A DNA stretch of 64,000 nucleotides from a virus. The stretch covers positions 1 to 64,000 of the IMG/VR virus record IMGVR_UViG_3300028027_000054; one strand, given 5' to 3'. This document shows, piece after piece, positions 1 to 38,670 of this stretch. The notes under the pieces are model-generated. The model was not told where the DNA came from and made no database searches. It saw only the letters and a list, made by a program, of their open reading frames with translations. A program made the translations under genes and the position numbers. Each line of letters opens with the position of its first letter. Position 1 is the stretch's first letter.

Positions 1-2
1 CC

Positions 3-632: not shown

Positions 633-637
633 CCACC

Positions 638-1498: not shown

Positions 1499-1520
1499 GT
1501 TCAAGCGGGTATCTACCACG

Positions 1521-18738: not shown

Positions 18739-21700
18739 ATGGCTGAAGACTTTCCGCAACAAATGCTGAATACCGGTATTCCTGCAGGACTGCTTGATGG
18801 TAAAGGTGTGCCAGTATCTCCTTGGGCTACAACGCCTGCAAGTCAGGTAAATGACCCTAATGTTGATCCGAGACATGTTTTAATGGGTCAGGTAACTCGT
18901 GCTATACCAAGTAGTCTTAGTGGTCCTATTCGTTCTTCTGCAAGAGAAGCTGAAAAATATATTGGGCAGGACTTTGGATTCCTGCCTTCTTCTGTCCGGG
19001 ATAATGAAGACTTCTATGCCCAGTATCAGTCTGGTATGGAGAAGATCGGTAAAGGACTATTAAAACTCCCACTATATACCGTAACCAAACTTGGATCAGG
19101 TGTAGGCTTTATTGCCGGTATGGCCAATCCAGTAAACTGGTTTGCAGAAGATGGTTACATCTCTGCTGTAGCTGACAACTCGATCAGCGGGTTCTTTGAC
19201 AGCTGGGAACAGGATATCAAGAACCAATGGTTACCCACTTTTCAGGAGGCTGAAGACCAGGATAAAGGTTTCTTTGCAAGAGCAGCTACTGATGTTGACT
19301 TCTGGACTGAAGACTTTGTAGATGGTTTGGCGTTCATGGCGTCTGCTTGGGTACCAGGTATGGCACTTAGTAAGGTGGGAGCAGGAGCTAAAGCCATTGC
19401 AGGCTTGGCTAAGTTTGGATCCAGGGGACTGGGAGCTGTTGGGGAGTCTGTAGAAGCTGTTGCAGCTACTACAAACTATTTCAAGAATGCAGCTAAATAT
19501 GCTAAGACCTTAGATAAGTTCAATGCCTGGGCTCTGGCAACTTCTTCTGAAGCTATGTTTGAAGCCAAGGGTGTCAAGGAAAATGTTTTAAAGTCTTTGG
19601 AAGGTCTTGACATGCCTGAGTCTGAGAAAAAGAAGATAGCTGGTGATAATGCCCGTAATGCATTCTTGATGAATGCTGCTCTTCTTGGTGCTACCAACGT
19701 CTTTGAACTTTCACTGGTTTCTAAAATGCTTAATAAAACCAGTGGTGTAGCGTCAGGTATTACAGGTGGTGCTAAGCTGGGAGAAGATGTAGCCGTAAAA
19801 CAGGCTACAACCCAAGTGGGTAAGTTCCTGGAAAGCGGGTTTGGCAGGTTTGCTAAAGACGCTACTGCTGGTGTATTCCGTGAAGGTTTTATAGAAGAGA
19901 ATGGACAGCTGGCTATTCAACGATTCAATGAACAGTATGGTGCTGCCGGTAAGGTGGCAGACATGCTGGATTTTAATACTTATGCTGAACTGGGTGGGAA
20001 CTACCTGAAGCAAACCTACGGAGCACTGGCAGGTGATGACACAGAAGCTGCTACCAGCATTGGTCTGGGTGGTATCCTGGGAGGTGGTATGACCGCTATC
20101 GGTAATGCCCGCCAGGCTCCTAAAGATAAACTCACTACAGAAGAGGCCGTTGACTACTATAACAAGTCCCAGGAAAGCTGGTTGAAGTTTGGTAACATCT
20201 ACCAGACAGAACAAGTTGTTACTAAAGACGCCAGTGGTAACGATGTAGTCACTGAAAAGATAAAGCTGGATCAGAACAACCAGCCGATGATGGACCAGCA
20301 GAAACTGGCTGGTATAGCCAGCTCGGTAAGATCCAACGCTGCTGCTATAGATCAGACGGACAATGACACAAACATGACCCGTCGCAACCTAGTAAGGGAT
20401 AACGCCTTTGCAGATTTTGTACTGGCCCATGTCAACGCCAACATGGAAGATACCCTGTTGGAGAAGCTTGATGCTATTGCAAACAGCTCACCTGAAGAGC
20501 TGGCCAAGCTCGGTTTTGTAGCAGATAAGACCCTGCCTGAACAGATTGCCCGTTATAAGTCACTAGCCAGTACGATCATCAAGCAGAATAAGATCATCAA
20601 TGCAGATATCATATTTGATGGTTCTAAAGAAGACGCTGCAAGAAAATCCCGTCTGACGCAACTTGCTGCCCAGCAAGCTGTGTACAAAGGTCTTGCTGCA
20701 GAAGAACAGGTAAAATATAATGAGATCCGTAACCAGGCCGTCAGCTCTGAAAACTCTTCTTTGTCAGATGGTCTTGTAGAACAGCTTAACGGTATCAAGC
20801 TTAGGATCACTAGCCAGGAACAGTTCATCAAGGAGCTTAAAGCTCAACCCAATAATCTCACCAAGTCACAGATAAAAGTAGCACAGGATCTTTTAGATAA
20901 CCTTAAAGAACAGCTGGCAAGTCTGGAGAAGACCAACGAGCTGTCTGTAAAGAACCTGAAGACGTTCAACAACGGGTTATACCAGTTTGAGAAGGATGCC
21001 CGCAATGAAGTGGCTTATCTGATTCCCATGCTGAAAAGGATGAAGTACAAAGGTGAGCTAGATAACCACGTTGAAACCCTCGGAAAAGAATGGGGATACT
21101 ATGCAGATTTCAATGATGGTAAGAAGAACTTCCTGGACATGTTCATTGAACAGCAGATCCAGGGACCTGTAAATAGCATTATAGAAGCAGAAAACAACCA
21201 GCCTCAACTTCCACCAGCTGCTCTGGCATCGCCACAAGGTCCAGCTACTCCTCCTCCTGGTCCTTCTGCAGGGCCACAACCTGGTGGTGCTGCACAGACA
21301 CAACCTGCCCCTACTCAGCAACAGACTTATGATGACCTGGAGAAGTTCCTTCAGGCAGAGTATGACATGGTAAAGCAAGCTCTGGAGGCTCAGGGAAACC
21401 CTGTGCCCAGTTATACAGACTGGAAACGTACTGCAGGCATAGAAGCTACTAAGCGTTTTATGGCTAAGAAAGGACAGCAACAACAAGGTGCACAGCAACA
21501 ACCTGCAGCTACCCCTGCTCTTACAGAAATGGAAAAAGCAGAAGAAAGGTTAAGACAAATATGGAACACCATAGGAAACGGTCCAGGTAGAAACGCAATA
21601 GAAGATGGTTGGACTGAGTCATTTGGACTTTTAGGTGATACTCTGAGTGTTGGTGGAGACAACCTGCAAGCTCATGGTATGGGTAAATCCGGGTTTGCTT

Positions 21701-24267
21701 ACGCTATAAAAGACTTGTTTGATCTATTCAAAAAAGGAATAGATCCTAACAGAGGTGGTGGTCGTTTGTATACTGCCCCACTTGCTGTGTCTAAAGAAAA
21801 TAAAGCAGCTGCTTCTGCAACAGGAACATCTGGAGGAACAGCTTATGCAGACGGTTCATTTATGTTGGTTGCCAAAAAAGGAATTCTTGGCATAAGCAAT
21901 GTAAATGATATTGGTGGTATCCTTGTTAACAGCGGCTTAACCGATATCAACCCAGAAATTCTTACAGAACTAAGAAAAGCTTTCCCTGGTTTAGTTATAG
22001 AAAGTTACAAAGGTGCTAAAGAACTAGTACAGAAACTTAATAATAACGCTCCACAAACTTCTACTTCTGCACCGGCAGCTCCTGTAGTTACAGATGTTGA
22101 AGAACCCGCTGAACAAACTACCAAAGAAGAACAACAGGCTCCTGCATCTACGTTAGAGAAAGAACTGAATGACCTGGCTAACCAACTCCGTAATGATGTT
22201 GGTATTCGGACTGAGCTTAGGTTCATGAAAGCTGGATCTATTGGATATGATAAAGACGGTAACAAGTACCAGTTAGTATCTAAGAAAGATAAGTACGGAC
22301 GCAGCCTTGAGTATCGTAAGAACGATGGACAGGAACAAAGCTTTAATCCAAAGACAGCTTCTCAGCAATCTGGCAGCCTGGATTATTATCCTGAAGGGTT
22401 TGTTAACTTATACAGTAAGAACCCCAAAGCTACCTTTGACAAGTACGAGAAAGATAAAGCTGCCATAGAAGAAAAGTACAGGCAGATAGAGGCTGCTAAA
22501 GCCCAGGCAGAGCAGAGTCAGTCTCAAGCAGACCAGACTGATCCGGAAGAAGAGGATACATCTAAAGATGTCAAGGACTTTGTACAGGACATTAACAAGA
22601 ACCGTACCCAGTCTAACCAGAACAATGCTTTTGCCAATGCGGAATACCAGGAAGGTTTCAGGCAGGTGGCTCCTTCTAACTCACTGGCCAACACTACAGA
22701 TCTGGTAAACGTAGTAGAGTTTGCAGCTAACCAGATCCGCTATGAAAGAGGAGATGTAAACAAGAACTATGTCTTTGATGTAGCTACCAGCACTTTTATG
22801 CCCGGTCAAAAGGTTACATATAAAGTCATGGTGGATGGTTTTGAACCCGTGGTGAACCGTCTCACTGGTGAGATGTATGATAAGAGTGCTCTATACAATG
22901 AGAACTGGAATGCTGTACAGAGCATGTTTGACTTTATTCCTATCGGGGTGTTTGCTAACATCCGTGGAAAAGAAGTCATGATCGGTACCATACATGAACC
23001 ACAGTGGATTGAGTATAAGATCGGTAACAAGTATCCGCACATTGCTGTTCCTCAGGACCAGATTGACCAGGCAGTGCCTGATGTAGTAAAAGAACAGGTC
23101 CAAAAAAATAGAGAACTTCGTAAGTTTATCTTGGAGAACTACAACCAAAATCATAACTTTGTTATAGAGGGAGTTGTAGAAGATAAATCCATGGGTATAC
23201 TAAGAACTACAGAATCTGTTGATCCTATCAGCAAGCGGGTAAATCCGAAGATTGCAGAAGGCGGTACAGACAACCGTCATGGTATGTTTGGTATCGTCAA
23301 GGACGGTATGATCCAGTCAGACCGTAATGTAGAAATAGACAACATCATCCCTACAGAATCTTTCTCTCCTCAAAATATTGCTAACTATCAGGGTGTAGCA
23401 GTGCTTATGTTGCCGACACCACTGGGCAAATGGTTCCCTTCCTTTATCCAACTGCCCAATGTTTCTACAGAGCAGTCTGAGTTTATCATTGAAGCATGGA
23501 AAGCTTTTACAAAACAGACCAATAATCCGGAAATAGTAAAAGCAGTGTATGATGCCATGGGTCTTACCCAGTCTGCCGACAGTTTTGCTGTTGGTGTACT
23601 GAGAGATTACATCCACCACTACATCACAATAGTAGATGAGAAAGGAATATCCCGTACAGGAACAGGTAGTGAGCTTTCTCCAGGCAGTGCCAGGATAAAC
23701 ATTACAAACAAGGGAGGCCTGGAACTGCAGGTAAAAGGTTTAGACCGCAGTTGGTATACCACCGCTGAGCCGATCATGAAAGCAGAAAACCTGCCGGTAG
23801 ACTACCTGCAGAAGATGAGCAACCTGAAAACCACTATTAGGTTTGAAAATGCTAAGAATGACAGCTTAAAAGGGATCAACTCTACAGACAAAGCCACCAT
23901 ACTTTCTATTAAGAACGGTAAGCTGGTCAAAGAAAACATAACGTACAACCAGTACATTATGGACCGTGCAGGAACTTTTGTAGACAACGGTATCCCAAGT
24001 AAGAATGCCTTTGGTGACTGGGTGTATTTTGCCAACCCTGTGGTGAAGATGAAAATGACCAATGCTTCAGATCCTAATGAAGGACAGTCTGAATCTAAAA
24101 AAGAAGTAACACCTACTCCTACAGTAGACCAGGTTAACACACCTCGTGAAGATAAAGGTGCGGCTCTCCTGGCAGCTCTTAAATCCAAGAGGCTTCAGGA
24201 AGAGCAGATGGAAGAACAGAAGAAAAACTGTACTAGCCTGAGAAGCAAGCTTGATAACATAATGTAA
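18739..24267 (+). CDS. Giant virion/cargo protein (1842 aa)
   Basis: Residues about 75-480 are helical with several hydrophobic stretches (LYTVTKLGSGVGFIAGMANP near 111-130, AFMASAWVPGMALSKVGAGA near 196-215). This could help membrane passage on injection. A Pro/Gln-rich linker (about 819-864) leads to a compact domain near 950-1100 (GGGRLYTAPL, YADGSFMLVAKKG, DIGGILVNSG, LRKAFPGLVI), which I cannot assign. Further linkers rich in Glu/Gln follow (near 1120-1140 and 1245-1275), then a beta-rich region. Its layout of globular parts joined by low-complexity linkers fits phage polyvalent proteins injected into the host. It lies directly before the polymerase gene. Function unknown. Confidence 0.62.
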   Translation: MAEDFPQQMLNTGIPAGLLDGKGVPVSPWATTPASQVNDPNVDPRHVLMGQVTRAIPSSLSGPIRSSAREAEKYIGQDFGFLPSSVRDNEDFYAQYQSGMEKIGKGLLKLPLYTVTKLGSGVGFIAGMANPVNWFAEDGYISAVADNSISGFFDSWEQDIKNQWLPTFQEAEDQDKGFFARAATDVDFWTEDFVDGLAFMASAWVPGMALSKVGAGAKAIAGLAKFGSRGLGAVGESVEAVAATTNYFKNAAKYAKTLDKFNAWALATSSEAMFEAKGVKENVLKSLEGLDMPESEKKKIAGDNARNAFLMNAALLGATNVFELSLVSKMLNKTSGVASGITGGAKLGEDVAVKQATTQVGKFLESGFGRFAKDATAGVFREGFIEENGQLAIQRFNEQYGAAGKVADMLDFNTYAELGGNYLKQTYGALAGDDTEAATSIGLGGILGGGMTAIGNARQAPKDKLTTEEAVDYYNKSQESWLKFGNIYQTEQVVTKDASGNDVVTEKIKLDQNNQPMMDQQKLAGIASSVRSNAAAIDQTDNDTNMTRRNLVRDNAFADFVLAHVNANMEDTLLEKLDAIANSSPEELAKLGFVADKTLPEQIARYKSLASTIIKQNKIINADIIFDGSKEDAARKSRLTQLAAQQAVYKGLAAEEQVKYNEIRNQAVSSENSSLSDGLVEQLNGIKLRITSQEQFIKELKAQPNNLTKSQIKVAQDLLDNLKEQLASLEKTNELSVKNLKTFNNGLYQFEKDARNEVAYLIPMLKRMKYKGELDNHVETLGKEWGYYADFNDGKKNFLDMFIEQQIQGPVNSIIEAENNQPQLPPAALASPQGPATPPPGPSAGPQPGGAAQTQPAPTQQQTYDDLEKFLQAEYDMVKQALEAQGNPVPSYTDWKRTAGIEATKRFMAKKGQQQQGAQQQPAATPALTEMEKAEERLRQIWNTIGNGPGRNAIEDGWTESFGLLGDTLSVGGDNLQAHGMGKSGFAYAIKDLFDLFKKGIDPNRGGGRLYTAPLAVSKENKAAASATGTSGGTAYADGSFMLVAKKGILGISNVNDIGGILVNSGLTDINPEILTELRKAFPGLVIESYKGAKELVQKLNNNAPQTSTSAPAAPVVTDVEEPAEQTTKEEQQAPASTLEKELNDLANQLRNDVGIRTELRFMKAGSIGYDKDGNKYQLVSKKDKYGRSLEYRKNDGQEQSFNPKTASQQSGSLDYYPEGFVNLYSKNPKATFDKYEKDKAAIEEKYRQIEAAKAQAEQSQSQADQTDPEEEDTSKDVKDFVQDINKNRTQSNQNNAFANAEYQEGFRQVAPSNSLANTTDLVNVVEFAANQIRYERGDVNKNYVFDVATSTFMPGQKVTYKVMVDGFEPVVNRLTGEMYDKSALYNENWNAVQSMFDFIPIGVFANIRGKEVMIGTIHEPQWIEYKIGNKYPHIAVPQDQIDQAVPDVVKEQVQKNRELRKFILENYNQNHNFVIEGVVEDKSMGILRTTESVDPISKRVNPKIAEGGTDNRHGMFGIVKDGMIQSDRNVEIDNIIPTESFSPQNIANYQGVAVLMLPTPLGKWFPSFIQLPNVSTEQSEFIIEAWKAFTKQTNNPEIVKAVYDAMGLTQSADSFAVGVLRDYIHHYITIVDEKGISRTGTGSELSPGSARINITNKGGLELQVKGLDRSWYTTAEPIMKAENLPVDYLQKMSNLKTTIRFENAKNDSLKGINSTDKATILSIKNGKLVKENITYNQYIMDRAGTFVDNGIPSKNAFGDWVYFANPVVKMKMTNASDPNEGQSESKKEVTPTPTVDQVNTPREDKGAALLAALKSKRLQEEQMEEQKKNCTSLRSKLDNIM

Positions 24268-24283
24268 TCTTATCCTATACCCT

Positions 24284-27200
24284 ATGATTTGTCCTAACAT
24301 TACCAGTCCGGAGTGGAAAGCTTTGGTTGCCAAGGTCGGTGAAAATCGTGCTTGGAAAGAGTTTTTGATATATGGAAAAACCCCCAGTGCTGATAACTAT
24401 GAAATCATAGATGCAGCAGCTGTGAAAGATAATACAGGTAAAGCATCTGAAGTTTTAGAATTTAGAGCTTTTCAGAGTTTTAAAGAGTATGAAGAGTTTC
24501 TGGAAGTAAAGAGGGATTTTACTAACGATTTTGCTAGTGCCTATCTAAAGCATTCTGCTGCTATAGATTTTGTTGATAGAATCTTTGATAAAGTTTTTCC
24601 TGGTGAAATGACCTGGGGTAACTACATTATTGATCCTAAAACAGGACAGACTAAGTTTATAGTAGATAATGAACCATTAGCAGGTATGACTGCAGAAGAG
24701 TTAAACAAAATGGTTCGTGCTAAGTTCAACACATGGTTTAAAGCAAACCTTAAACGAGAGTTGGATACAGAAACCATTAACTTAAATGGTAAAGAAATAA
24801 ATATTAAAAATCCTTCTACCACTGAAGAAAGAGTAGCACGTACAATTTTTGATCTTTTTGCTACCTTTAAACCAGCAGTTGAAAATTATGTATTTTCTAA
24901 AGAAGGTTTAGAAGCTGATGTTATTAATGACTTATCAGTTAAATACAAAGTTGTTGTCTATAATCCGGACAATGATGAAGACAAACAAGTGTTTCGTTCT
25001 ATCAGGACAAAATCTACTGAGCAGATTGCAGCAGGTATTAGTAAGGACCTGATCCGTTCACAGAAAGATCTGAAATATACTTCTCACATCATGGCCAGTG
25101 TGATCAACACACTGGGTGATATAGCTCCTAACAGGAAGCTGGAGGTATCTCCGGCCCAGGCTTTTAATACCGTAAAGGGTATTTATGCTGAAGTGGCTGA
25201 TAACCTGAAGATGGCCCTTAACGGTATCGTTGGTTCTGATCAGGACCTGGCGGAAGTAAAAGCTTCAGCGTCTTATAATGACATTCTCAATGAGTTTCCG
25301 GTATTGGCTTATGTCAACAGCTATGACGATATGGTCAGTGCTGCAGAAACGTATGATACTATAGTATCCAACTTTGATAAATATAAAGAATCTGTTGTAG
25401 CAGAGCTGGCCCGTAAGGGTATCCGTATGGGAAAAAACACCATACAGATGGTAGATCCTGCTGATGTAGCTGTACAGGAAGTTGATGACGCAGAAAACAC
25501 AGAGATCAGCCAGGATGAAATCGGTGATCGTTATGACCGCAGTGTTTTTGAAACCAATCCCCGTGACACAGCCAGCGTAAGGGTCAAAGCTCTTGTGCAA
25601 ACCATTAAGACCGGTGAGTACGAACTAGGCATTCCCGTATATGCAGATCCAAATGATGTGTTTGCAGATATCCTGCAGGCTGGCAGTGAAATGGCACTTA
25701 CTGGTTTTACGGATGCTTCCGGTAAGTTCCAGGCATTTAAGTTTGCCATCATCAAGCGTGCTGAGGCAAGACCCTATCTGAATGATTTTCTTACCAAGCT
25801 TAACCGCTTTGAGCAAAACAACGAGTGGGAAAAGATCAATGACATTCTAACTTTTGCCACTAAAGCATTTGCTAACGAGACCCTGCTTCTTTACAAGACC
25901 CGTAAAGATGGTAACCAGGTAACTGGTATCACTGACGTAAAAGTGATCAACGCCAACCGTGACACCGTGGAAGACCAGGTGTCAAGAGAGTGGCTGGAAT
26001 CCCACAAGCAGTCTGCATTCTTTAATCGTTCTTCCCTGAATGAACTTAAAGTCAATCCTGAGAAACTGCAGAGACTGGGTAAGATCATTGAAGAAGGTAA
26101 AGCAGCTGTAGGACCAGCCAAGACCGCTAAGTTTAAAGAGTTCTTTGCTACACTGGGTATTGAGTTTACTGACGCTGAACTGGCTTATATAACTCCCCGT
26201 TTGTCTAAGGCACTTGGTAAAGGACCTGACTTTGATATCGTCTTTGGAAAGAAGAACCTTTTAGATAACATATACACTTCTTTTACAAAAAACGCCTCCC
26301 AGGTATTTGATGATAACTATGGATTTCAGGATGAAAAAGGTAACATGCGTAAGCTGGCTACCCTGTACTATGAAGCCAACCCTGGAAGATATAAGCTGGC
26401 CTCAGCCCAGACTGCAGACGGTAAGCAGAAATACCTGTACATCCTGACCAACTTTATTGAAAAAAAGAAACGCCAGTGGAACCTGGGTCAGTACGCCAAC
26501 GTCACCAATAGTGCTCTTGCCCGTCCCAACAGGTCTTTCTGGGATAAGGTAAAAAGCGGAGTGAACAGTTTTATACCCCAGTACTTTAACGGTATCCGTG
26601 AACAACAAGCGGGTAAAGACGGTAAGGTGAGAAAGTCCCTTACTGAAAAAGAGCAGACCGTAACCATGTTGCTCAAGCATCAGGAGAATCTTAATGTCGC
26701 TACCTATATCAACTTCACGTTGTCAGATAAGACCACTACCATAGAAACCAAAATGACCAAGGAGTTCTTTGTAGATGGTAATGACCAGCCTCTGGGTAAG
26801 GGTCGTGATTATATTGTAAACGAGAAAGGTGAGCTGCAGTTTACATCAGGCCTTGGACAAAGAGCTTATGATGCATTTGTAGCTCCTGAGGTGAGCCGTA
26901 TCTTGGCTGCCATTAAACATGGCAAGGATATTAACCTGGAGAACTTCGACATAGCCAGTAAGCTGTTTTATTTTATTCCTTCCCTGAACTCCAATCCAAA
27001 CCTGGAAGAGTTCCGTAGTGATCTGTATGCTGGTCAACTGACTATAGACCAGCTTAATGCCAAACATGGCACCGCTGTAGGTCAGGCTGTACTGGAAGAC
27101 ATGCAGCAGTCTGCAGAACAACAGATAGACCAGTTTATTGCCAACGGTATTTTGAAAGTAGAAAATGGTGCATACTCATTCCCAACTTCTATAAACGGGT

Positions 27201-30200
27201 TCAAGAACACAGACTATGTCAACCGGTTGCGTCAGTCAGGGGTTAAAGGTCGTGACGCAGCACGTCTGATGCTGCTGGACATGAAGCTAAATTACCAGAA
27301 CACCCAGGTAAAGATGATCCAGTTCCTGAGGTTTGATCCGGCCCTGGCATTTAAAAAGTTCAAGGGCTTTACCAATCCGGGTACATTTACAGACATATCT
27401 GCTGCAGACAGGATTAACCTGGTTTCTACCACATGGGATGAATTCTCCAAGCGTGCTGCTGCCTTGATTGCCCCTGGTAGCCAGGGAAGCTATAGCTGGA
27501 AGACCAAGGATGGTGAGACTTATTCTTCTCCTTCTTATGAAGCAGTTACTGCTGCTGACGTAGACTACAAGATTGGAGAAACAGATAATACTACAACAGA
27601 TGCTCAAGAATACATTACACTTAATGAGCATATAGATAACCTCATGTCAGAAGGTAAGATCCCTCTGGAGATCTGGCAGTCTATCTATGATAAAATTGAA
27701 AAAGCCGGTCCTGGTGGATACTATGAACTCAGCGGTGAAGAGCTGGGTTATGTATTCACACCTACTAAACCTGTACAGGTAAACGACGTAGACGAAGGAT
27801 CTGCAGAAGCAGGTCTGAACCGTATTGACTATGTAAAGAGCTCCCGTTATCCGTTGATTCCCCAGCATGAAGCAGGAAGTGAGCGTGATAAGATGCGTGG
27901 CTGGATGGAGCGTAATAACATCCGTGCCATCAACTTTGCTTCAGGCAAAAAGCTGGGTCGTCCTGTAAGATCAGTTACACTATTTAACGAAAATGGTTCT
28001 GAGTTTATAGAACCCTCTGCCAATGATACAGCTGCTGCCAGGCAAACGCTAAGCCGTGAAGGTCTGCGTACACAGCAGGAGATTCCGCACCAGAAAGACC
28101 AGATCCGTACGGTGTCTCAGATGAACCGTACCCTGTTTGATAATATGCTGGAGGAGAGTTTCTCTCTAAAGGGTATCCAAAAGATAAGCGGTACAGAAGC
28201 AAAGGGTTTAAAAGAACTGGTACGCTCTCGTTTGTTTGAAAAGCAGGCTGAAAAACTGCAACAGGAACTGGGAGATCTAAACAGATCCCATCGTGGTCTG
28301 CACCGTTTACTTAAAGATGTTATTCTAAATGACACCACAGGAAGCTATGGTGAAAACGATCTTAAGAGTATAGAGCTGGATGAAAAGACCGGCAAGTTTA
28401 AACTCCCGCTTGAGCAGCAGTTTAAACTCAAGAAGTTTCAGGGACTGATCAACTCTTTGATCAACAAGAACGTCATGCTTAAAGTAGAGGGATCCAGCTT
28501 TGTGCAGGTCTCTGGTGTGGGTGCTAAGTTCAACTTCTCCAACCTTAGTAAAGGTGTAAAGAGTGGAATCATCTGGACGGATAGCTACGCCAAGAACTTT
28601 AAAGACGGTGACGTTAAACTAAACTACATCCGCAAAGAGGGTGATCAGGTGAAGCCTGCCCAGGTGATTGTGTCCCAGTACCTGCGTGACAAAGAAGGAA
28701 ACCTGATTGATCTGTCTCAATATATCACTGAAAAAAACGGGGTAAAGATCCTGGATACGTCTAAGTTCTCTCCTGAAATGTTTGAGCTCGTGGGAACACG
28801 TATTCCCAACCAGTCACATCCTTCCATGCTTCCCATAGAAGTGGTAGGTTTTCTACCGGCTTATATGGAGAACACCATCATAGTCCCAGATGGTATCACC
28901 GGTCAGATGGGTTCTGACTTTGACGTAGATAAACTCTATGCTTACATCTCTAAGATGGAGCAGAAAGAAGACAAGTTTGTTCCTGTACAATATGAACTGA
29001 ACAGTACAGAAGACGTAGATAAGCTTAGTGAAGAACAGCTTGGTCAGCTCTACCGTGACATTCACTGGATGGCCCTGACGCACCCGGCTGCTTACGATAA
29101 GATCACCAAGTCTATTGACATGCCAGAGGTAAAAAGAAAGGTGGCGGAAAGAGAAGCTGAGCTGAAAAAGTATGGTATAGCTGATGACAAGGGTGTAATG
29201 CTTCCCCTGGACTTCATGACCTCTATCAACCGATTTAACGATAACCGTTCTGGTAAAGTGGGTGTAGGTGTGTTTGCCAACCTGATCTCTGCTCAAGCAG
29301 ACTTCCAGGACAAGGTACTCAGGCTGGGTATGATGCAAGATGACGTTGCAAAAGAAAAGCCTATCAAGATCAGGCTTTCTAAAAACGGAAAGGTTGTAGA
29401 TCTTCTTTACCTGGGTAAACCAGGTACTTCTAAGTCTTTTGTAGGTAAGACCCGTACTATATCTGAGAACCTGAACATCATGTTTACGGAGTCAGTGGAC
29501 AACGCCAAGAACCAGTATCTGCGTGAGTTCAACTGGGAAGAAAAAGCTATGAGTGCCATTGGTGTATTTGAAATGCTTACTGATGAGAATGGCAATGCAG
29601 CTCCTATTGAGTTTGTCATGGACCTGACTTCTCAGGAAGCCATTAAAGAACTTTTTACATCTATAGACCAGAAGCAGGACTCGTTTGGAGAGTTTGACAG
29701 CAGTGCACTAGATACCGCCACCTTAGAACTTCAGTTTAAGTACGCAAACGCCTTGGTAACCGGTGGATACTTTTCCAGTATAGCTGAGGCACAAGAGTAT
29801 TTAGTAGACGAGAACCGTGACCAGGCACTGGATCCGGAAACCCTGGATGATATGTGGTTGGTAGGTAAAGCCATCAAGTTACAGGAAGAGCAAAAGCAAG
29901 AGGCTCTAGAAAAGATAGCAAAGGATAAAGGCTACACGTCTGTTCGTGATCTGATGTTAAAATACACCACTGTTCAACATGACAGTCTGGAGCTCTTTAA
30001 GAGAATGGAGGACATAGGTCGTGAGCTAAACACCATCCTTGGTAGCGTATATACCTATACTAAAGGTATTGGTCCCAATGTATTTGCCACACGTCAGAAG
30101 CTTACCCAGCTGAATAAACTTTCTGGTTCTACAAACTTTCTTGGTCTTACTAATGTAGCTGGTGTTATCAAGCGTAATGACAGCACGGGTAAGATAGAGA

Positions 30201-33200
30201 TCGAGGCTCAGGGAGAGATCGGGGCATCTATCAAGCATTCACTTATGGTGGCCCAGGATATTTACAAGGCCCTGTTTCCGATCAGTTCTGGTAGTCATAT
30301 AGAAGCTGTTGTAGATAAATTGATGGCAAACCAGGGTAAGAGCAAAGAAGAGCTGGGAAAAGATAGTTACATCAGCCTTTATGACACTGTGTTCAATGGT
30401 ATCAAGGCTTACCTGTACACTATGCCTGGTTTGGAATTATTCCAGGACTCACGTGGCACCAGGGATAAGCTTGTCAACGGAGACACGTCTTTGGGTAAAC
30501 GTATCATGGATCTGAGTAAAGATCCAGAATACAGACGTAACGGGTTCCTTAAAAATCTGGAAGTAAAGCAGGCTCCCAAGCAGAAAGCTTTCACTGTAAA
30601 CTTCAAAGCTCCTTTTGGAACTGATCTGGACGAGAAAGCCATCATCAGCGGGTTCTATGAACTGGCCACTTCTGATAAAGAAGAGATCCGCCAGCTGGCC
30701 AAAGACCTGGCTATTTATCCTTTTGTTACAGGTGATGCCGGTAACATGGGTAGGTTTATTCCTGTTGACTATTATCTGAGTGACGAGGACTTTAGCCAGG
30801 TGATTGCTGCACTAGACAGCGTATACAGCATGAACATGGATGACCCAGGAGCTATGCAGGCACTGATGCAACAGATCGTGCAGAACAATCCTGACCAGTT
30901 TGCCAAGGCATTTAAGTATTCTACATATGGAAGCGTTACCGGTACAAAAGACAATGTATTTAAACGTGTAGTCAAAAAGCTTGTAGGAAAAGAAGAACTG
31001 AAAGATGTAACTACGTTTACCATTAAGATTGGTGACTTTGAAGCTGATCCTAAAGGAAAGAACATAGCAAACTCTCTGAAGGTTCCTCTGTCAAACGATG
31101 AGTCAAAATCTCTTAAGCAACAAGGTAAGACAGTAAATTTTAAATATCCTCCGTATATCCTGATCAACGATACGTTTACCAGTGAGTTTATAGAAGCGGG
31201 TAGCCGTAACGTGAACTATCTGTACAAGAGGGTTAGCTTTGCGGGAAATCCGGTTGGTACCTATGAGCGGATTAATATCCTGGGATACAACGGTATCAAA
31301 GAGTATGACTTTAACAACCCAGATCTGGCATCATCCATAGAAGGTAATAATAACGTAGAGGATGACACAGCGTTTCAGGAAACCGTTCCGCCTGCAGCTC
31401 CTGTACAGGAACAAGTTACTTCTACTGGTAGTAAAACTTATACAGGTAAGATAGAAAGCTTGCAACCTAACCAGGTGTTTGTGTTTGGGTCAAATCCTGA
31501 AGGTAGACACGGTGCAGGTGCAGCAAAAACTGCAGCTGATAAGTTTGGTGCAGTTAATAATCTTGGTCGTGGTTTACAAGGACAGTCTTATGCACTGGTA
31601 ACCAAGAACCTTAAACCTGGTTTTACAGAATCAAGCACTGGGATCACTTATGAGAAAGCCGGTGAAAGAAGTGTTAGTCCGGAACAAGTTAAGGCTAACA
31701 TTCAGGAGCTTTATGAAACAGCTAAGCGTAATCCGGATAAAGAGTTTATTGTAGCTTATTCAGCTACAGGTAAAAATCTGAATGGATACAGTGCACAAGA
31801 AATGGCTGATATGTTCTCTTCTGCAGAGATACCATCTAACATGGTATTTGAAGAAGGGTTTAGTAAGTTGTTAAATAAGCAGGAGGCTCCTGTTACTCAA
31901 GGTGTAGAGATCTCTTCTAACTCAAAAGGTCTGGCAGCAGCTCTTACTAATCCTACAGAGCTGGCTAAGCAGAAAGGTAATTTGACTCAGTCTTATCCTG
32001 TTACGTTTGATGGGGTTACTTATAAAGACGCAGAAGAAGCTTACCAGAAGAACAAGGGTAAGTATAAACCTGAAGGTCTTGGTAAGGGATCTACATATGA
32101 TCTGATGGTACAGATCCTGGAAGCTAAGCTTAAGCAACATCCTCGTTTGACAGAAGAGATCACTAAAGCTGGAGGCATGAATTGGTTGTCTAAAGCTACT
32201 CATCAGCCAACTGGTAAGAATACGGTATGGGAAACTGGTGGGCAGAACCTGTTTATCAATGCTTTACAGGAAGCTTACTATGGTGTAACTGAAGATGCTG
32301 CAATCTTAGCAGAGCAAAACGAGGAGCAGGAAGTTATTAAAGCACCGCAAGAGGACCAGGAATCAGTCACCATGGTAACGTATGGTGGTAGAAACTTTAT
32401 CCTGGAAGAAAATGCAGGTAGTTTTGATGTTTTCTATGCTAATGATAATGGAACTAAGGGTGTTCCTGTAGAAGACAGGGGGCTGTTTAAAAAAGTACAG
32501 CTCACACACGCTATTTCACTTTACCCTGAAAGAGTGGTTTCTATAACAATCGGTTCTAAAGAGAACAGTTACTATGTTATTGATGATAGGATTTTCTCTC
32601 TACAACCAAGCTCTTTTGGTGACCTGATCACATCTGATGATGTCACACGCCGTGTGATGCAGCAGATGAACACACCAATGCAGGAAAAGCAGGTTGAGCA
32701 GCAAGAACCTAAGAAGTCTACTACAACGTTTACATATAAGAATATCACTGTACCTACAGAGTTTCAGCTGAGTGCAGAACAAAGCAAGGCTCTGGAAAAC
32801 ATCATTGACTTTGTAGAAGCAAGATCTGCAGGAGAAGGAACTTATGACGGCACCTATACATTAGAAGGCTATGCCGGTACTGGTAAGACATCCATCATTG
32901 GTGTTCTGGACCGGTATATCTCTCAGAAAGCCAAGGGTACTAAGTTTGTTTACATGGCACCTACCCATGCGGCTACTGTTGCCTTGGGTAATAACATTGT
33001 GAAGTATGGTGCCAGGGAACTGCCTATGACTATACAGGCATCAGTAACAGAATCTAAGGATCCGAGAAGACCCGGACCTAAGTTTACCAAGAAGTTTACT
33101 GACAGGGCTACTGGTATGAGGAATGTCATCGTTTTGGATGAGGCTTCTATGTTGGCCAACAAAGACTTTGAGAAGCTTATTCTTGCTGCTAAAGCAGAAG

Positions 33201-35221
33201 GTTATAAGATCATATTCATGGGAGATCCCAAGCAGATCCCTGAGGTAATGCCAGGTGTAAAAACCAAAGAGCTTGCCAGGGCATTTGCTAATCCTAACAA
33301 GTCAGTACTTACCAGTGTATTCAGAACCAAGGACAACAACATCCTGACCGTGCTGACCAACATCCGTAACAACACGGACTTTATGGAGTATGAGTTTGAG
33401 AGTACAGACAACATGAAGCAGCTCAATCGTTCTGCTTATAATGAAGAGCTGATCAATGATCTTCAGAATAACCTGGAAGACGTCACCATTATTAACTACA
33501 CCAATGATGGGGTTGCCAAGATCAACAAGGCTGCCCGTCAGGTGTTGGGGTATAGCGGACCGTTGAAACCCGGAGAGAAGATCGTTGGGTACCTGGGTTC
33601 CCAGACTAAGCAGGTAGAAAAAGGACATCTGGCTAACTCGGTGAGCTACATGGTCCAGGACGTCTCTGTAAGGGATGATGGAGCTGTAGTCATTACAGCT
33701 ACATCTAAAGCCCTGGAAGATCTGCAGAAAGCAGGTATGACAGGTTTTCCTTCCCAGGTCTCTTTCAGATACTTACAACTCTCTGTTAATGATTCTTTAG
33801 ACTTTGGTTTGAACCAGGCCCAACTTGACAATAACAAGAAGGAGCTTGAGCGTTCCTTAAAACAGATTCATGAGCTTAATGAACTGTACCAAAGAAAAGG
33901 GATTGCTTATCCGACTTACCTGGTACAGGTACAAGCTATTCGTACAGCAATGGCTGACTTCAACACAGGAGCCAAGTATATTTATAATCCGGCATCAGGT
34001 CAGATAGAACCATATGATTCCAGGAAACATAAAGGCATCAATGCCAACCTTGAGATGGACAAGGGTGTGGACTTTGGATATGGCATCACGGTACACAAGT
34101 CACAGGGTATGACCATTCCTATTGTGTATTTTGACACTAACAGTCTTAGTGTAGTGTCTGACACAGCCATCACCAGGGATGGGCAGAAGTTCAATACAGA
34201 AAAGAATGCCCTGTACTATGTGGGTATGTCCCGTGCCTCTCAAAAACTGGTGGTTCCCAAGAACACCGTAGCAGCACCGATAGCCAGTCAGTCTGACTTT
34301 ATGGATGGGTTCTCTGCTAGTCCTGAGTTTCAGATGGAGGACTTTAATCCACTGGAACTGTTCTTAGGTTTCCAGCAGGATGAAGCTATAGATAACTTTG
34401 TAGCTGAACTGTTTGGTAAAGAAACCACAGTGACTGACTATAAAGGGTTCTTGAATAAACTCTTCAAGGCAACATCTGCCGTTAACAAAGCCCTGATCAC
34501 AGCTATCAGTAAAACAGGTACGGTGGAACCGGTGACATTTAAGATAGACATGTCTCAGCCTGATCCGGGTACGTACAACAGAGCTACCAGGACTATTACG
34601 ATTAATCCAAAGGCAGCTATTGCTGATGCAGTGGACATAGAAGACATGCAAGCTAAGATCCATGAGGTGATCATGCATGAGCTGGTGCACCACGTGACCG
34701 TGGATCTGCTACTGGCAGACCAGGCTACGCTGAGTCCTGAGCAACGCAAGTGGGTCAAGGGTATTAACAACCTCTTTGACCAGGTGCAAACCAAGATGCT
34801 GGAAGATCCTCAACACTCTTCAGCTTTGCTGATGGCCATGGCCAACATGAGTTCTGAAGGGTTCATGTCAGCTAAAGATAAGAGTCTGTACTACGGACTG
34901 ACCAGCGTATATGACTTTGTTACCATGATGATGACAGACAAAGGTTTCCAGAACTTTATGAACACTGTACCGGTACAGGGAAACAAAACGATCCTTGACA
35001 GGTTTATGGATTTGTTGGTTAGTCTGATCAAGTCTCTGGGTATCCAGGTAAAAGATAACTCAGCCCTGGATGAAGGTCTTAGAAATATCATTGGCCTGAT
35101 GGGTGCCCGTACGGAGAACAATGTACAGAAGTCTATTGCCACTGAGTCTGCAAACCGGGACTACATAGAGAAAAACTTTGATAGAATTATTAACGTGCTC
35201 AACATTAAAACCAAGTGCTAA
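24284..35221 (+). CDS. Polyvalent virion RNA polymerase: DPBB RNAP, macro-like, NADAR, SF1 helicase, zincin (3645 aa)
   Basis: The RNA polymerase signature is DFDVD at residues 1545-1549, within TRIPNQSHPS, VGFLPAYMENTIIVPDGIT and QMGSDFDVDKLY. This matches the DxDxD metal-binding motif of single-chain, two-barrel polymerases such as the crAss-like virion RNAP. A segment near 1260 (GLRTQQEIPHQ, then RTVSQMNRTLF) may belong to the other barrel. About 2384-2528 is macro-like (VFGSNPEGRHGAGAA at 2400). About 2542-2668 is a NADAR domain (VTFDGVTYKDAEEAY, GGMNWL, VWETGG). An SF1 RecD/Dda-like helicase spans about 2827-3330: Walker A GYAGTGKTS from 2862, DEAS at 2952-2955, GDPKQIP, VHKSQG and YVGMSRAS. 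HELVH at 3465-3469 is a zincin motif. Probably packaged, injected and used for early transcription. The next gene overlaps its stop (TAATG). Confidence 0.88.
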   Translation: MICPNITSPEWKALVAKVGENRAWKEFLIYGKTPSADNYEIIDAAAVKDNTGKASEVLEFRAFQSFKEYEEFLEVKRDFTNDFASAYLKHSAAIDFVDRIFDKVFPGEMTWGNYIIDPKTGQTKFIVDNEPLAGMTAEELNKMVRAKFNTWFKANLKRELDTETINLNGKEINIKNPSTTEERVARTIFDLFATFKPAVENYVFSKEGLEADVINDLSVKYKVVVYNPDNDEDKQVFRSIRTKSTEQIAAGISKDLIRSQKDLKYTSHIMASVINTLGDIAPNRKLEVSPAQAFNTVKGIYAEVADNLKMALNGIVGSDQDLAEVKASASYNDILNEFPVLAYVNSYDDMVSAAETYDTIVSNFDKYKESVVAELARKGIRMGKNTIQMVDPADVAVQEVDDAENTEISQDEIGDRYDRSVFETNPRDTASVRVKALVQTIKTGEYELGIPVYADPNDVFADILQAGSEMALTGFTDASGKFQAFKFAIIKRAEARPYLNDFLTKLNRFEQNNEWEKINDILTFATKAFANETLLLYKTRKDGNQVTGITDVKVINANRDTVEDQVSREWLESHKQSAFFNRSSLNELKVNPEKLQRLGKIIEEGKAAVGPAKTAKFKEFFATLGIEFTDAELAYITPRLSKALGKGPDFDIVFGKKNLLDNIYTSFTKNASQVFDDNYGFQDEKGNMRKLATLYYEANPGRYKLASAQTADGKQKYLYILTNFIEKKKRQWNLGQYANVTNSALARPNRSFWDKVKSGVNSFIPQYFNGIREQQAGKDGKVRKSLTEKEQTVTMLLKHQENLNVATYINFTLSDKTTTIETKMTKEFFVDGNDQPLGKGRDYIVNEKGELQFTSGLGQRAYDAFVAPEVSRILAAIKHGKDINLENFDIASKLFYFIPSLNSNPNLEEFRSDLYAGQLTIDQLNAKHGTAVGQAVLEDMQQSAEQQIDQFIANGILKVENGAYSFPTSINGFKNTDYVNRLRQSGVKGRDAARLMLLDMKLNYQNTQVKMIQFLRFDPALAFKKFKGFTNPGTFTDISAADRINLVSTTWDEFSKRAAALIAPGSQGSYSWKTKDGETYSSPSYEAVTAADVDYKIGETDNTTTDAQEYITLNEHIDNLMSEGKIPLEIWQSIYDKIEKAGPGGYYELSGEELGYVFTPTKPVQVNDVDEGSAEAGLNRIDYVKSSRYPLIPQHEAGSERDKMRGWMERNNIRAINFASGKKLGRPVRSVTLFNENGSEFIEPSANDTAAARQTLSREGLRTQQEIPHQKDQIRTVSQMNRTLFDNMLEESFSLKGIQKISGTEAKGLKELVRSRLFEKQAEKLQQELGDLNRSHRGLHRLLKDVILNDTTGSYGENDLKSIELDEKTGKFKLPLEQQFKLKKFQGLINSLINKNVMLKVEGSSFVQVSGVGAKFNFSNLSKGVKSGIIWTDSYAKNFKDGDVKLNYIRKEGDQVKPAQVIVSQYLRDKEGNLIDLSQYITEKNGVKILDTSKFSPEMFELVGTRIPNQSHPSMLPIEVVGFLPAYMENTIIVPDGITGQMGSDFDVDKLYAYISKMEQKEDKFVPVQYELNSTEDVDKLSEEQLGQLYRDIHWMALTHPAAYDKITKSIDMPEVKRKVAEREAELKKYGIADDKGVMLPLDFMTSINRFNDNRSGKVGVGVFANLISAQADFQDKVLRLGMMQDDVAKEKPIKIRLSKNGKVVDLLYLGKPGTSKSFVGKTRTISENLNIMFTESVDNAKNQYLREFNWEEKAMSAIGVFEMLTDENGNAAPIEFVMDLTSQEAIKELFTSIDQKQDSFGEFDSSALDTATLELQFKYANALVTGGYFSSIAEAQEYLVDENRDQALDPETLDDMWLVGKAIKLQEEQKQEALEKIAKDKGYTSVRDLMLKYTTVQHDSLELFKRMEDIGRELNTILGSVYTYTKGIGPNVFATRQKLTQLNKLSGSTNFLGLTNVAGVIKRNDSTGKIEIEAQGEIGASIKHSLMVAQDIYKALFPISSGSHIEAVVDKLMANQGKSKEELGKDSYISLYDTVFNGIKAYLYTMPGLELFQDSRGTRDKLVNGDTSLGKRIMDLSKDPEYRRNGFLKNLEVKQAPKQKAFTVNFKAPFGTDLDEKAIISGFYELATSDKEEIRQLAKDLAIYPFVTGDAGNMGRFIPVDYYLSDEDFSQVIAALDSVYSMNMDDPGAMQALMQQIVQNNPDQFAKAFKYSTYGSVTGTKDNVFKRVVKKLVGKEELKDVTTFTIKIGDFEADPKGKNIANSLKVPLSNDESKSLKQQGKTVNFKYPPYILINDTFTSEFIEAGSRNVNYLYKRVSFAGNPVGTYERINILGYNGIKEYDFNNPDLASSIEGNNNVEDDTAFQETVPPAAPVQEQVTSTGSKTYTGKIESLQPNQVFVFGSNPEGRHGAGAAKTAADKFGAVNNLGRGLQGQSYALVTKNLKPGFTESSTGITYEKAGERSVSPEQVKANIQELYETAKRNPDKEFIVAYSATGKNLNGYSAQEMADMFSSAEIPSNMVFEEGFSKLLNKQEAPVTQGVEISSNSKGLAAALTNPTELAKQKGNLTQSYPVTFDGVTYKDAEEAYQKNKGKYKPEGLGKGSTYDLMVQILEAKLKQHPRLTEEITKAGGMNWLSKATHQPTGKNTVWETGGQNLFINALQEAYYGVTEDAAILAEQNEEQEVIKAPQEDQESVTMVTYGGRNFILEENAGSFDVFYANDNGTKGVPVEDRGLFKKVQLTHAISLYPERVVSITIGSKENSYYVIDDRIFSLQPSSFGDLITSDDVTRRVMQQMNTPMQEKQVEQQEPKKSTTTFTYKNITVPTEFQLSAEQSKALENIIDFVEARSAGEGTYDGTYTLEGYAGTGKTSIIGVLDRYISQKAKGTKFVYMAPTHAATVALGNNIVKYGARELPMTIQASVTESKDPRRPGPKFTKKFTDRATGMRNVIVLDEASMLANKDFEKLILAAKAEGYKIIFMGDPKQIPEVMPGVKTKELARAFANPNKSVLTSVFRTKDNNILTVLTNIRNNTDFMEYEFESTDNMKQLNRSAYNEELINDLQNNLEDVTIINYTNDGVAKINKAARQVLGYSGPLKPGEKIVGYLGSQTKQVEKGHLANSVSYMVQDVSVRDDGAVVITATSKALEDLQKAGMTGFPSQVSFRYLQLSVNDSLDFGLNQAQLDNNKKELERSLKQIHELNELYQRKGIAYPTYLVQVQAIRTAMADFNTGAKYIYNPASGQIEPYDSRKHKGINANLEMDKGVDFGYGITVHKSQGMTIPIVYFDTNSLSVVSDTAITRDGQKFNTEKNALYYVGMSRASQKLVVPKNTVAAPIASQSDFMDGFSASPEFQMEDFNPLELFLGFQQDEAIDNFVAELFGKETTVTDYKGFLNKLFKATSAVNKALITAISKTGTVEPVTFKIDMSQPDPGTYNRATRTITINPKAAIADAVDIEDMQAKIHEVIMHELVHHVTVDLLLADQATLSPEQRKWVKGINNLFDQVQTKMLEDPQHSSALLMAMANMSSEGFMSAKDKSLYYGLTSVYDFVTMMMTDKGFQNFMNTVPVQGNKTILDRFMDLLVSLIKSLGIQVKDNSALDEGLRNIIGLMGARTENNVQKSIATESANRDYIEKNFDRIINVLNIKTKC

Positions 35222-38200
35222 TGGCTTGTAAATACACCTATAACGGAAAAGAGTATACAAAAGAACAACTGGTATCAGGAATAGCTACAGGCTTGTTCCG
35301 GGAAAACCCCGTGGAAATATTCAAGTCAGTAGCCACGCAGAAAAAGCAGAAGCAGTCTGACATTGTACGGGATACGCTGACGGTGTTGTACCAAAGAAAG
35401 AAACAGGCGGAAGACGTTATACAGGCAATCAAGAACAGTAAGGAGCCCAAGGATGTCAAGCTGAAGAAAAGAGCTTATTATAATGGGATCATCAGCCGTA
35501 CTAGTGATTCTATCAAAGAGCTCTTAGAAACAGATACAGATAAGCAATTAGACTACATATTGGACCTGGCCCGTATAGATGCTGAACTGGTCAGGGCTAT
35601 GTACACGTCCAAGAGTATGACCTTTAATGAGCTGCAGTTTGCCAACACCATAGTAGAAACATGGTCGAATCTTCCTGAAGCTTTGGGTATAGTTGATATT
35701 TACGATGCTAAAGTAGATCCTGAGCTTACCAAGCAGCTGGAACAAAACGAGGTGGAGTATGCCCTTCTTAGCAGACGCTCACATGCCATGGCTGTAGAGC
35801 TGATCAAGAAAGCATCTAAGGGAAAACTGTCAGAGGATGACATTACCAAATTGGTTGACACTACATTCTTAACTGAATACACCAGGGAACTGTCCACTGC
35901 AGGTATTCCTATCTCCAACCACCTGGCATACATCATGAAGGAGGTTAACCTTAGAATCAACAAGGAGCATAATAAGAACTATGACCTGATTGACAGGATG
36001 ACTCAGGGGATTAAAGACTTCAGCATCTTTATTAAGAAACAAAAGAATAAGGACGGGGTAGAAACCCTGGGTTTAGTGACCCGTTATTCTCAGAAGTTCT
36101 GGGAAACCCGCAGGTCCGTTAACCGTAAACTCCGTAAAGATCTTAAAGAAGCTGCTGGAGATAAAGCCAAGACTTCTCTGGCCTGGAGAACCTATCATAC
36201 CTGGAATGAATCTAATACCATTGCTTTCAATGCCCTGTTGTTTATCAACCGCAATAACTATACAGACCAGCAGAGAGACGCAGAGATCACCAGGATGAGA
36301 AACCTGGGCTTTAACCAATTGGAGGTTGATGATATCATCGTTGAATCTTTTAAACGCTATGAAAGGTTTCAGAACCGTTTAGAAGAGTATGAGCATGAGA
36401 TCATGACTGAGGCAGCGGAAGATCCGTCTATTATTCCCCAGGCTATGACTTATGATGAGTTTGTAAAAAGCAAGGTGGAAGAGTTTGAGGAGATGAACAA
36501 TCCACTGAAGTACATGGACCAAAAGTTCTCTGGTGCAAAGATTACTTCTTATGGTGGAGCAAACTATACCTATTTGATCCCGGTAAAAGCACTGGGCGGA
36601 AAAGACAGCGGGTACTATGATGCCAACTTTACCAAGATTGCAGCAGATCCAAAACTGTATGAGTTTTATACCTGGTATACGAAGTTCATATCTGACAACC
36701 TGAGCTGGTTGCCACAAGAAGAGATTGAAGACCTGGGTAGTAACTTCTTACCGGTTATCGCAGACAGGCTCGCTAAAGAATATGGTTTTACAAGCCTGAA
36801 GGAATCTGTTAACGGACTGGGTGACTGGTTCGTAAAAGCTCTTAGTAACAACGGTTTTGAAGAAAAGACAACGGTGAATCCGTTCAGCCGTAAGGAACTG
36901 CGGGATTTCAAGAGCAGATTCATTAATGAAGCAGTGGCTGTAGAAGAAAGATCCACTGACCTGGGTTTGATTGCCAAGCTATTTAGTGACATGGCATTGG
37001 TTTACAAGCATAAGAACACGGTAAAAGCAGAAGTAGATACGATCAATGACATGATCCAGAACACTAAAGGATCTTATAAGTTTGACAAGAAGCTCAACAC
37101 ACTAATCCGCCAGGATAAAGATGCCAAGAGTATCCAGTCTTTGGCTGACTGGACAGTGAGAAAGGGATTCTATGGACTTAAGTCTGAAGATCCACTGTGG
37201 CAAAGTGACGAGCTTTTCTATGACTGGAAAGAACTCATTCCTCTGATGGGTTATAAGTCTGCCAAAGCTAAAGAAGCCCAGGCACTTAGTGAGGATATAA
37301 CTAAACTTAATAAAGCTTTAGAAGAAAACCTTAACCTTTCTGATGAAGATCGTCAGAAGATTGTAGACGCCAGGAATGCTAAGATTGAGCAGTACTACAA
37401 GCTTGGTGGCAGAAGATTCTCGTTAACAAAAGCTATAGATAGTGGTATCAACAATACACGTCTCACTGCATTAGGATTTGCTCCTTTCTCAGCTGTACGA
37501 AACTTAGTGGTTGGAAAGATCAATAATTATATGCATAGTGCAGGTGGCAGAGACTATACAAAAAAAGAGCAGAGGTGGGCAAACAAACTGCTGACTCAAA
37601 CCGTAGCCAGGTATTGGAGCGGAGGTAAGTTTGAATCTTCTACGACACGTAAGATTGCCGGACTGTTAAGTGATTCTGGTATGGTGGAAGGAGATGATGG
37701 AATGTATATGAGAACCATAGCAGATAAGAAGACTCCCCTGAATAAGCTCAGAGAGATGATTCCCAAAGCTTACACCTGGCTCAGTGGTGGTGACTATCAT
37801 TTCAAGGCTGAGATGATGCTTTCTGCTATGAAGTTTGAAAAGGTTAAGACCAGTAAAGGAGAGATGTCTTTTTGGGATGTACTCAATGAAGAGCGTGAAT
37901 ATAACGAGGCTGAATACGGTCCCTGGGATGCAGCTGCAAATGGAGGTTTAAACTTTGAGGATTTCTATAATAAGAAGATGCTCAAGTACCGTCAGCTGGC
38001 CAACAAACTCCATGGTGCTACCGGTAAAGACGTGTTTGTAAAAGGTAAAGACAACGCTATTGGTCGTTTGTTATTCATGTTTAAATCCTGGTTACCTGAA
38101 ACGGTTGGTGTAAGGTTTGATCCCCGTCACAAAGATGCTTTGCTGGAACGTGATGAAGAGGGTTATTACAGAACCTTTGGTCGTATGGTATGGGACAAGA

Positions 38201-38670
38201 AAGCAAGCGTTATCAAAATGATGTTCAACGCTATGTTAGGAAGAGATGTGGGTTTACAAGACGAGATGGAGTTGGCTAACTTTAAAAAAGCTGTTAAAGA
38301 AATCCAGGTGCTCACTACACTGTGGATGAGTTATCTACTGCTGAGAGCTATGGCTCCGGATGATGATAAGGACAAGAAGATCTACAACTTGCTTTTACTG
38401 CGTCAGCTACATGACCTGAATCGTGATATGACTTATTATATTAATATTAACTCAGTGTCTGAACTGCAGCGGGAAGCTTTTCCCATTATCAGGACCATGA
38501 GAAACTGGGGAGATGCTGGTAAAGCGGTAGCTTACTATGGCCTGGGAGTAGAAAATGATGAGGGAGAACTGGAGTATGATGCTCAACGGACAGCTCTTAA
38601 AGTGACCAAGGTGTTACCGGTGTTAAGTAATGTCAACCGGGTAATATACTACGCTAAACAAGTAGATTAA
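35221..38670 (+). CDS. Large virion protein downstream of RNA polymerase (1149 aa)
   Basis: The ATG overlaps the stop of the polymerase gene (TAATG), so the two are coupled. An in-frame GTG at 35215 is a less likely start. The protein is helical and charged, with coiled-coil-like parts near residues 220-300 and 670-730. A weakly hydrophobic stretch near 1015-1035 (LTTLWMSYLLLRAMAP) could insert into a membrane. No catalytic motif was recognised. In crAss-like phages the genes beside the polymerase also encode packaged proteins, so a cargo or polymerase-partner role is plausible. It is the last plus-strand gene before a convergent terminator. Confidence 0.65.
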   Translation: MACKYTYNGKEYTKEQLVSGIATGLFRENPVEIFKSVATQKKQKQSDIVRDTLTVLYQRKKQAEDVIQAIKNSKEPKDVKLKKRAYYNGIISRTSDSIKELLETDTDKQLDYILDLARIDAELVRAMYTSKSMTFNELQFANTIVETWSNLPEALGIVDIYDAKVDPELTKQLEQNEVEYALLSRRSHAMAVELIKKASKGKLSEDDITKLVDTTFLTEYTRELSTAGIPISNHLAYIMKEVNLRINKEHNKNYDLIDRMTQGIKDFSIFIKKQKNKDGVETLGLVTRYSQKFWETRRSVNRKLRKDLKEAAGDKAKTSLAWRTYHTWNESNTIAFNALLFINRNNYTDQQRDAEITRMRNLGFNQLEVDDIIVESFKRYERFQNRLEEYEHEIMTEAAEDPSIIPQAMTYDEFVKSKVEEFEEMNNPLKYMDQKFSGAKITSYGGANYTYLIPVKALGGKDSGYYDANFTKIAADPKLYEFYTWYTKFISDNLSWLPQEEIEDLGSNFLPVIADRLAKEYGFTSLKESVNGLGDWFVKALSNNGFEEKTTVNPFSRKELRDFKSRFINEAVAVEERSTDLGLIAKLFSDMALVYKHKNTVKAEVDTINDMIQNTKGSYKFDKKLNTLIRQDKDAKSIQSLADWTVRKGFYGLKSEDPLWQSDELFYDWKELIPLMGYKSAKAKEAQALSEDITKLNKALEENLNLSDEDRQKIVDARNAKIEQYYKLGGRRFSLTKAIDSGINNTRLTALGFAPFSAVRNLVVGKINNYMHSAGGRDYTKKEQRWANKLLTQTVARYWSGGKFESSTTRKIAGLLSDSGMVEGDDGMYMRTIADKKTPLNKLREMIPKAYTWLSGGDYHFKAEMMLSAMKFEKVKTSKGEMSFWDVLNEEREYNEAEYGPWDAAANGGLNFEDFYNKKMLKYRQLANKLHGATGKDVFVKGKDNAIGRLLFMFKSWLPETVGVRFDPRHKDALLERDEEGYYRTFGRMVWDKKASVIKMMFNAMLGRDVGLQDEMELANFKKAVKEIQVLTTLWMSYLLLRAMAPDDDKDKKIYNLLLLRQLHDLNRDMTYYININSVSELQREAFPIIRTMRNWGDAGKAVAYYGLGVENDEGELEYDAQRTALKVTKVLPVLSNVNRVIYYAKQVD

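Follow-up and report, generated by a model that had tools for sequence, protein, structure and literature searches.

The locus described here raises the question of why a phage RNA polymerase (RNAP) should share a single polypeptide with several other enzymatic domains, and what such a chain would do in infection. The window, i.e., the whole 64,000-nucleotide stretch that we analyzed, was taken from a virus record of 79,806 bases, of which it covers bases 1-64000. On its plus strand, which also encodes all of the domains and neighbors discussed below, positions 24284-35221 form a single uninterrupted frame with an ATG start and zero internal stops. Its 3645-residue product, described as one protein in an earlier sequence-only reading, is a two-barrel, virion-type RNAP with a C-terminal payload. 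The N-terminus (residues 1-230, 24284-24973) is variable, with 36% amino acid identity to the nearest relative, L004, versus about 80% elsewhere. It is followed by the RNAP body (residues 231-2330, 24974-31273), delimited with three HMMs (RNAPN, RNAPcore and RNAPtail) over relatives.

In tblastn searches of phage records, residues 1-2379 matched Fpv3 gp32 (5e-35) and phi14:2 gp66 (2e-15) and, because both matches span the same stretch, the resemblance is not due to chance. A 34-sequence profile of the modeled catalytic core (residues 901-2100, 26984-30583) retrieved phi14:2 gp66 (PDB 6VR4) as the sole solved protein (E = 1.9e-116), the match covering profile positions 7-1131 of 1135. When an AlphaFold2 model of the same residues (pLDDT 82.3, pTM 0.80) was submitted to Foldseek, 6VR4 came first (5.6e-33) and QDE-1 next (2.1e-4). 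The DFDVD metal-binding motif was confirmed at residues 1545-1549 (28916-28930), where it had previously been placed, and aligns with the DFDID of 6VR4; in an alignment of 15 RNAPs, the G-D-D-D at DFDxD is invariant, as are several lysines and R, P and S positions. These profile and model matches firmly place residues ~231-2330, as a single-chain two-barrel RNAP, in the phi14:2 gp66 family, the fold being called by matching of the whole model rather than by tracing individual barrels by hand. The sequence-only reading had proposed a two-barrel enzyme, and nothing in the predicted structure spoke against it.

In a tree of RNAP cores, the window grouped with Fpv3 and environmental contigs (100/99), separate from the named Crassvirales; Fpv3 itself lies outside Crassvirales according to the taxonomy. 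No major capsid protein (MCP), portal or TerL gene was seen on the 79.8 kb record, because the record begins inside the structural genes. Two peculiarities of the core were observed among relatives. L004 has an insert of ~60 residues (1553-1615) immediately after DFDVD that the window lacks, and at four loci (L084, L086, L088 and L091) the core is encoded as two ORFs with ~0.5 kb separating the halves, possibly an intron or intein; Rfam found no known intron at these four loci.

Residues 2786-3344 (32639-34315) matched the Dda-like family phrog_325 (8.4e-60) and AAA_30 (2.6e-22), and contain helicase motifs (Walker A, DEAS, GDPKQ, HKSQG and YVGMSR). In a fold search with a model of the payload this region matched T4 Dda (7e-13). 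The SF1 helicase noted earlier is thus firmly assigned to the Dda/RecD2-like SF1B group. At the C-terminus, the zincin-like domain (residues 3398-3645, 34475-35218), also anticipated from its HExxH motif, has HELVH at residues 3465-3469 and matched phrog_2206 (N4-like vRNAP, 6.8e-9), and an iterated zincin HMM reached the HExxH of N4 gp50 at position 2228 (2.1e-9). At the level of the family, these alignments firmly indicate a zincin homologous to that of the N4 virion RNAP.

Such a domain might act on its own chain. It is possible, but in our judgment the less probable outcome, that the protein is a polyprotein precursor, from which its own zincin, acting in the virion or in the cell, frees RNAP, ADP-ribose hydrolase(s) and helicase to work separately. 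Iyer et al. (2017; PMC5512222), who treat the N4 vRNAP, with its zincin, as a polyvalent protein, propose that zincins process such proteins, and the window zincin is homologous to the N4 one. However, neither a cleavage site nor a processed product is known for the window chain, and among relatives the zincin varies in position or lies in a neighboring protein, so that in those with the zincin elsewhere cleavage in trans would be required.

Between polymerase and helicase, residues 2385-2556 (31436-31951) matched the NCBIfam model A1S_2505_Nterm (NF049995) with 101 bits against a cut-off of 45 (E = 3.9e-29), as well as phrog_2072 (7e-30). The domain had been called macro-like; it stands as a member of the A1S_2505 family, for which a macro fold is at most possible. 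No macro match was obtained for this region by PDB sequence search, nor for the payload model by fold search, in which the helicase dominated, and when the A1S_2505/NADAR stretch was used to search PDB by sequence, no usable match emerged. The adjoining residues 2557-2692 (31952-32359) score 14.5 bits on their own against a Pfam cut-off of 35.1, so we label this domain NADAR-like rather than a family member. Comparison by hhalign with the canonical NADARs of two relatives (L042 and L059), using shallow alignments, gave 94.1% (E = 1.3e-7), and in L042 a Pfam NADAR (6.1e-15) occupies the same slot. The earlier claim of a NADAR is therefore supported indirectly, by the profile comparison and the shared slot, but not by the domain's own score, and a divergent NADAR is probable from these alignments. 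A small β-rich domain (residues 2693-2785, 32360-32638; AlphaFold2 confidence ~80) comes next and, in alignments and a census, was seen only in close kin. In the AlphaFold2 run on residues 2385-3584, A1S_2505 and the zincin were modeled well and the helicase moderately well, but NADAR poorly. NADARs are de-ADP-ribosylating enzymes for which a phage role has been suggested (PMC11125620), and the chain probably holds one or two ADP-ribose-handling domains.

The payload varies widely among relatives. Our set of RNAP ORFs was gathered mainly by the DFDxD pattern and many loci are cut, so that payload counts are lower bounds. Among the matches listed, at least 44 of 145 non-redundant RNAP ORFs carried A1S_2505, NADAR, SF1 or SLOG, and at least 16 carried two or more of these (SF1 in at least 24, A1S_2505 in at least 20, NADAR in at least 13 and SLOG in at least 11); a zincin was present on the same chain in at least 63, and the median length was 4007 residues. 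The modules occur in many orders, upstream or downstream of the polymerase. A quickly built tree of 135 cores, in which the deep branching is uncertain, implies at least 12 changes of presence for A1S_2505, 10 for NADAR, 15 for SF1 and 10 for SLOG. L004 has an additional DprA/SLOG-like domain, L021 lacks A1S_2505, and in L027 zincin, SF1 and A1S_2505 are all N-terminal to the RNAP; the order is RNAP-A1S_2505-SF1 in crAssphage cr50_1 and RNAP-SF1 in cr118_1. Three close kin (L006-L008, 48%) have RNAP and zincin alone, without the cassette. Other cargo includes a cpYpsA SLOG (L081) and, in an RNAP chain of at least 6738 residues that runs off its locus (L134, ORF 1121-21335), ART-PolyVal (3.8e-5) with a zeta-toxin-like kinase, AAA_33 (3.6e-17). 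As judged from these sequence comparisons, phages swap and reorder this cargo, with modules gained, lost and shuffled, and the polyvalent character proposed for the chain in the sequence-only reading is borne out across relatives.

Exchange within the payload has been recent. Between the window and L004, Ks falls in NADAR (0.33) and in A1S_2505 (0.52). Intervals of 60 codons that start at residues 2501-2561 show a third-position identity of 0.88-0.93, against a median of 0.55, and the patch at residues ~2501-2620, spanning A1S_2505 and NADAR, was thus recently exchanged between the two lineages. This bears on the proposal that the extra domains simply serve transcription, the helicase melting promoters or removing roadblocks and the zincin and A1S_2505 being structural or ejection parts, with no counter-defense. 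The recurrence of RNAP with SF1 in the absence of NADAR or A1S_2505, in cr118_1 and others, is in its favor. We nevertheless consider it unlikely: no part in transcription is known for NADAR or SLOG, L134 carries ART-PolyVal and a zeta-toxin-like kinase, and the A1S_2505/NADAR patch was exchanged between lineages as arms-race cargo would be.

Alternatively, the protein might be an ordinary giant RNAP of the crAss type, with C-terminal domains that are inert or in the course of decay, which would suit the divergence of the NADAR. We regard this as very improbable, given that the helicase and zincin motifs are intact and that RNAP core, helicase and zincin all have a Ka/Ks of 0.07-0.08 between the window and L004 (with Ks of 1.6-1.8, i.e., near saturation). 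SF1 and zincin are thus under purifying selection equal to that on the RNAP core. Finally, although the record is a metagenomic one, we rejected an assembly chimera, whose probability is negligible, because relatives on other contigs (L004 and L042) show the same module order in one ORF.

How does the chain compare with known systems? Phi14:2 gp66 likewise has a single-chain two-barrel core with DFDxD, and gp65- and gp67-like neighbors in the same order, but it is 2180 residues long and lacks helicase, A1S_2505 and NADAR, and the phi14:2 zincin sits in gp65. The nearest named relative of the RNAP (~30-33% identity) is Fpv3 gp32, a protein of 4287 residues annotated as virion structural, which shares the C-terminal zincin but has no helicase, A1S_2505 or NADAR and carries an extra N-terminal part of more than 1.5 kb (~2300 residues ahead of the RNAP core region). 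In cr50_1 gp059 (NC_055868, 4774 residues, annotated "DNA helicase"), RNAP and SF1 helicase share a single ORF with A1S_2505, and in cr118_1 gp14 (4946 residues) RNAP core and SF1 helicase are similarly fused; in both, unlike the window, NADAR was not found and an HExxH precedes the RNAP, and identity is ~20-30%. P23-45 gp96 also places a two-barrel RNAP within a giant virion protein, but there the fusion is to the tail tape measure protein, and no enzymatic payload was seen in the parts of the account that we consulted (PMC10770324).

The sequence-only reading had taken the size of the chain as unusual, known crAss-like vRNAPs being much shorter. That argument fails, because the literature already treats giant crAss vRNAPs, up to ~6000 residues long, as a hallmark (PMC10136315), and our own panel had a median of 4007. 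Large multidomain transcription proteins have also been described (Yutin 2021, PMC7886860), and the fusion of RNAP, A1S_2505 and SF1 is already known from the published cr50_1. In the literature searched, where subscription journals and figures were mostly beyond reach, we found no RNAP-helicase-NADAR fusion in crAss-like phages, nor two-barrel virion RNAPs described as carrying an ADP-ribose-themed payload that can be exchanged. What is new is the pattern of payload shuffling and recent exchange around the RNAP.

The genes on either side of the RNAP bear on its packaging. Upstream lies a gp67-like protein of 1842 residues (18739-24267; BLASTP 1.2e-26 to phi14:2 gp67), part of the transcription/ejection block, and downstream a gp65-like protein of 1151 residues (35215-38670; BLASTP 2.8e-5 to phi14:2 gp65), whose start overlaps the RNAP stop and which is strongly conserved among close kin. 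The order gp67-like/RNAP/gp65-like is that of the gp67/gp66/gp65 block of phi14:2, and the proteins of that syntenic block were detected in virions. Three RNAP-associated proteins of crAss001 were also found in virions by mass spectrometry (PMC10172136), and the annotation of the Fpv3 homolog as virion structural agrees with this. By analogy, we infer that the window chain is packaged and injected.

Several other genes attracted our attention. In locus L005, ORF 2-6742 encodes a gp67-like protein with an extra copy of the zincin, beside the one in the RNAP chain of the same locus. In the window, a small protein with an HEIFH motif is encoded amid the tail genes (1455-1862, plus strand), a possible second metallopeptidase, and a radical SAM protein resembling spore photoproduct lyase lies at 42643-43494 on the minus strand (Pfam SPL, 9.7e-11). 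Two 507-residue proteins are encoded as a pair on the minus strand, at 62288-63811 of the window and 3866-5389 of L040 (63866-65389 of the record); one has the stretch DVYVDVSGSMSSG, which resembles a VWA domain but has no Pfam match, and the other is an ATPase (phrog_19600, 2.9e-16). A phage integrase (phrog_1, 4.2e-26) at 13021-14133 of L040 (73021-74133 of the record, minus strand) makes a temperate lifestyle possible.

Several distinct enzymatic domains thus lie in one polypeptide, i.e., RNAP, SF1, zincin, A1S_2505 and a probable NADAR. We consider it likely that the protein is a polyvalent two-barrel virion RNAP, encoded by a relative of Flavobacterium phage Fpv3 and of the crAss-like phages, and that it works as follows. 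The chain would be made late, packed into the capsid together with its gp65- and gp67-like neighbors, and ejected along with the genome. The RNAP would then transcribe early genes independently of the host RNAP, the helicase opening the template or clearing bound proteins. NADAR, and possibly A1S_2505, would remove ADP-ribose marks or signals of host defenses such as DarT-type toxins, and the zincin would release modules from the chain or cut a host protein. Because relatives swap and reorder the add-on cargo, the polymerase, once injected, probably brings anti-host enzymes with it.

On our best reading, by analogy, this polyvalent RNAP parallels the case of N4, whose gp50 is an injected giant RNAP with a homologous zincin, and whose relatives include fusions to other effectors (Iyer 2017, PMC5512222), although gp50 is a T7-type single-subunit RNAP of unrelated fold. 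One zincin family on two unrelated RNAPs, of the N4 and crAss types, suggests a need shared by injected polymerases. More tentatively, and at a little under an even chance, crAss-like and Fpv3-like phages may have in their two-barrel virion RNAPs a general delivery chassis, a conserved polymerase that is injected and whose flanks exchange ADP-ribose- or NAD-related anti-defense modules (NADAR, A1S_2505, SLOG and ART-PolyVal), helicase and protease. If so, early transcription and the disarming of the host would arrive as one molecule. The idea links polyvalent injected effectors with giant two-barrel virion RNAPs, both already known, and offers one reason for the great size of such polymerases. 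In this abundant group of phages, where the annotation of most giant proteins goes no further than hypothetical or "helicase", the variable parts of the RNAP chains may represent a catalog of pre-delivered counter-defense enzymes.
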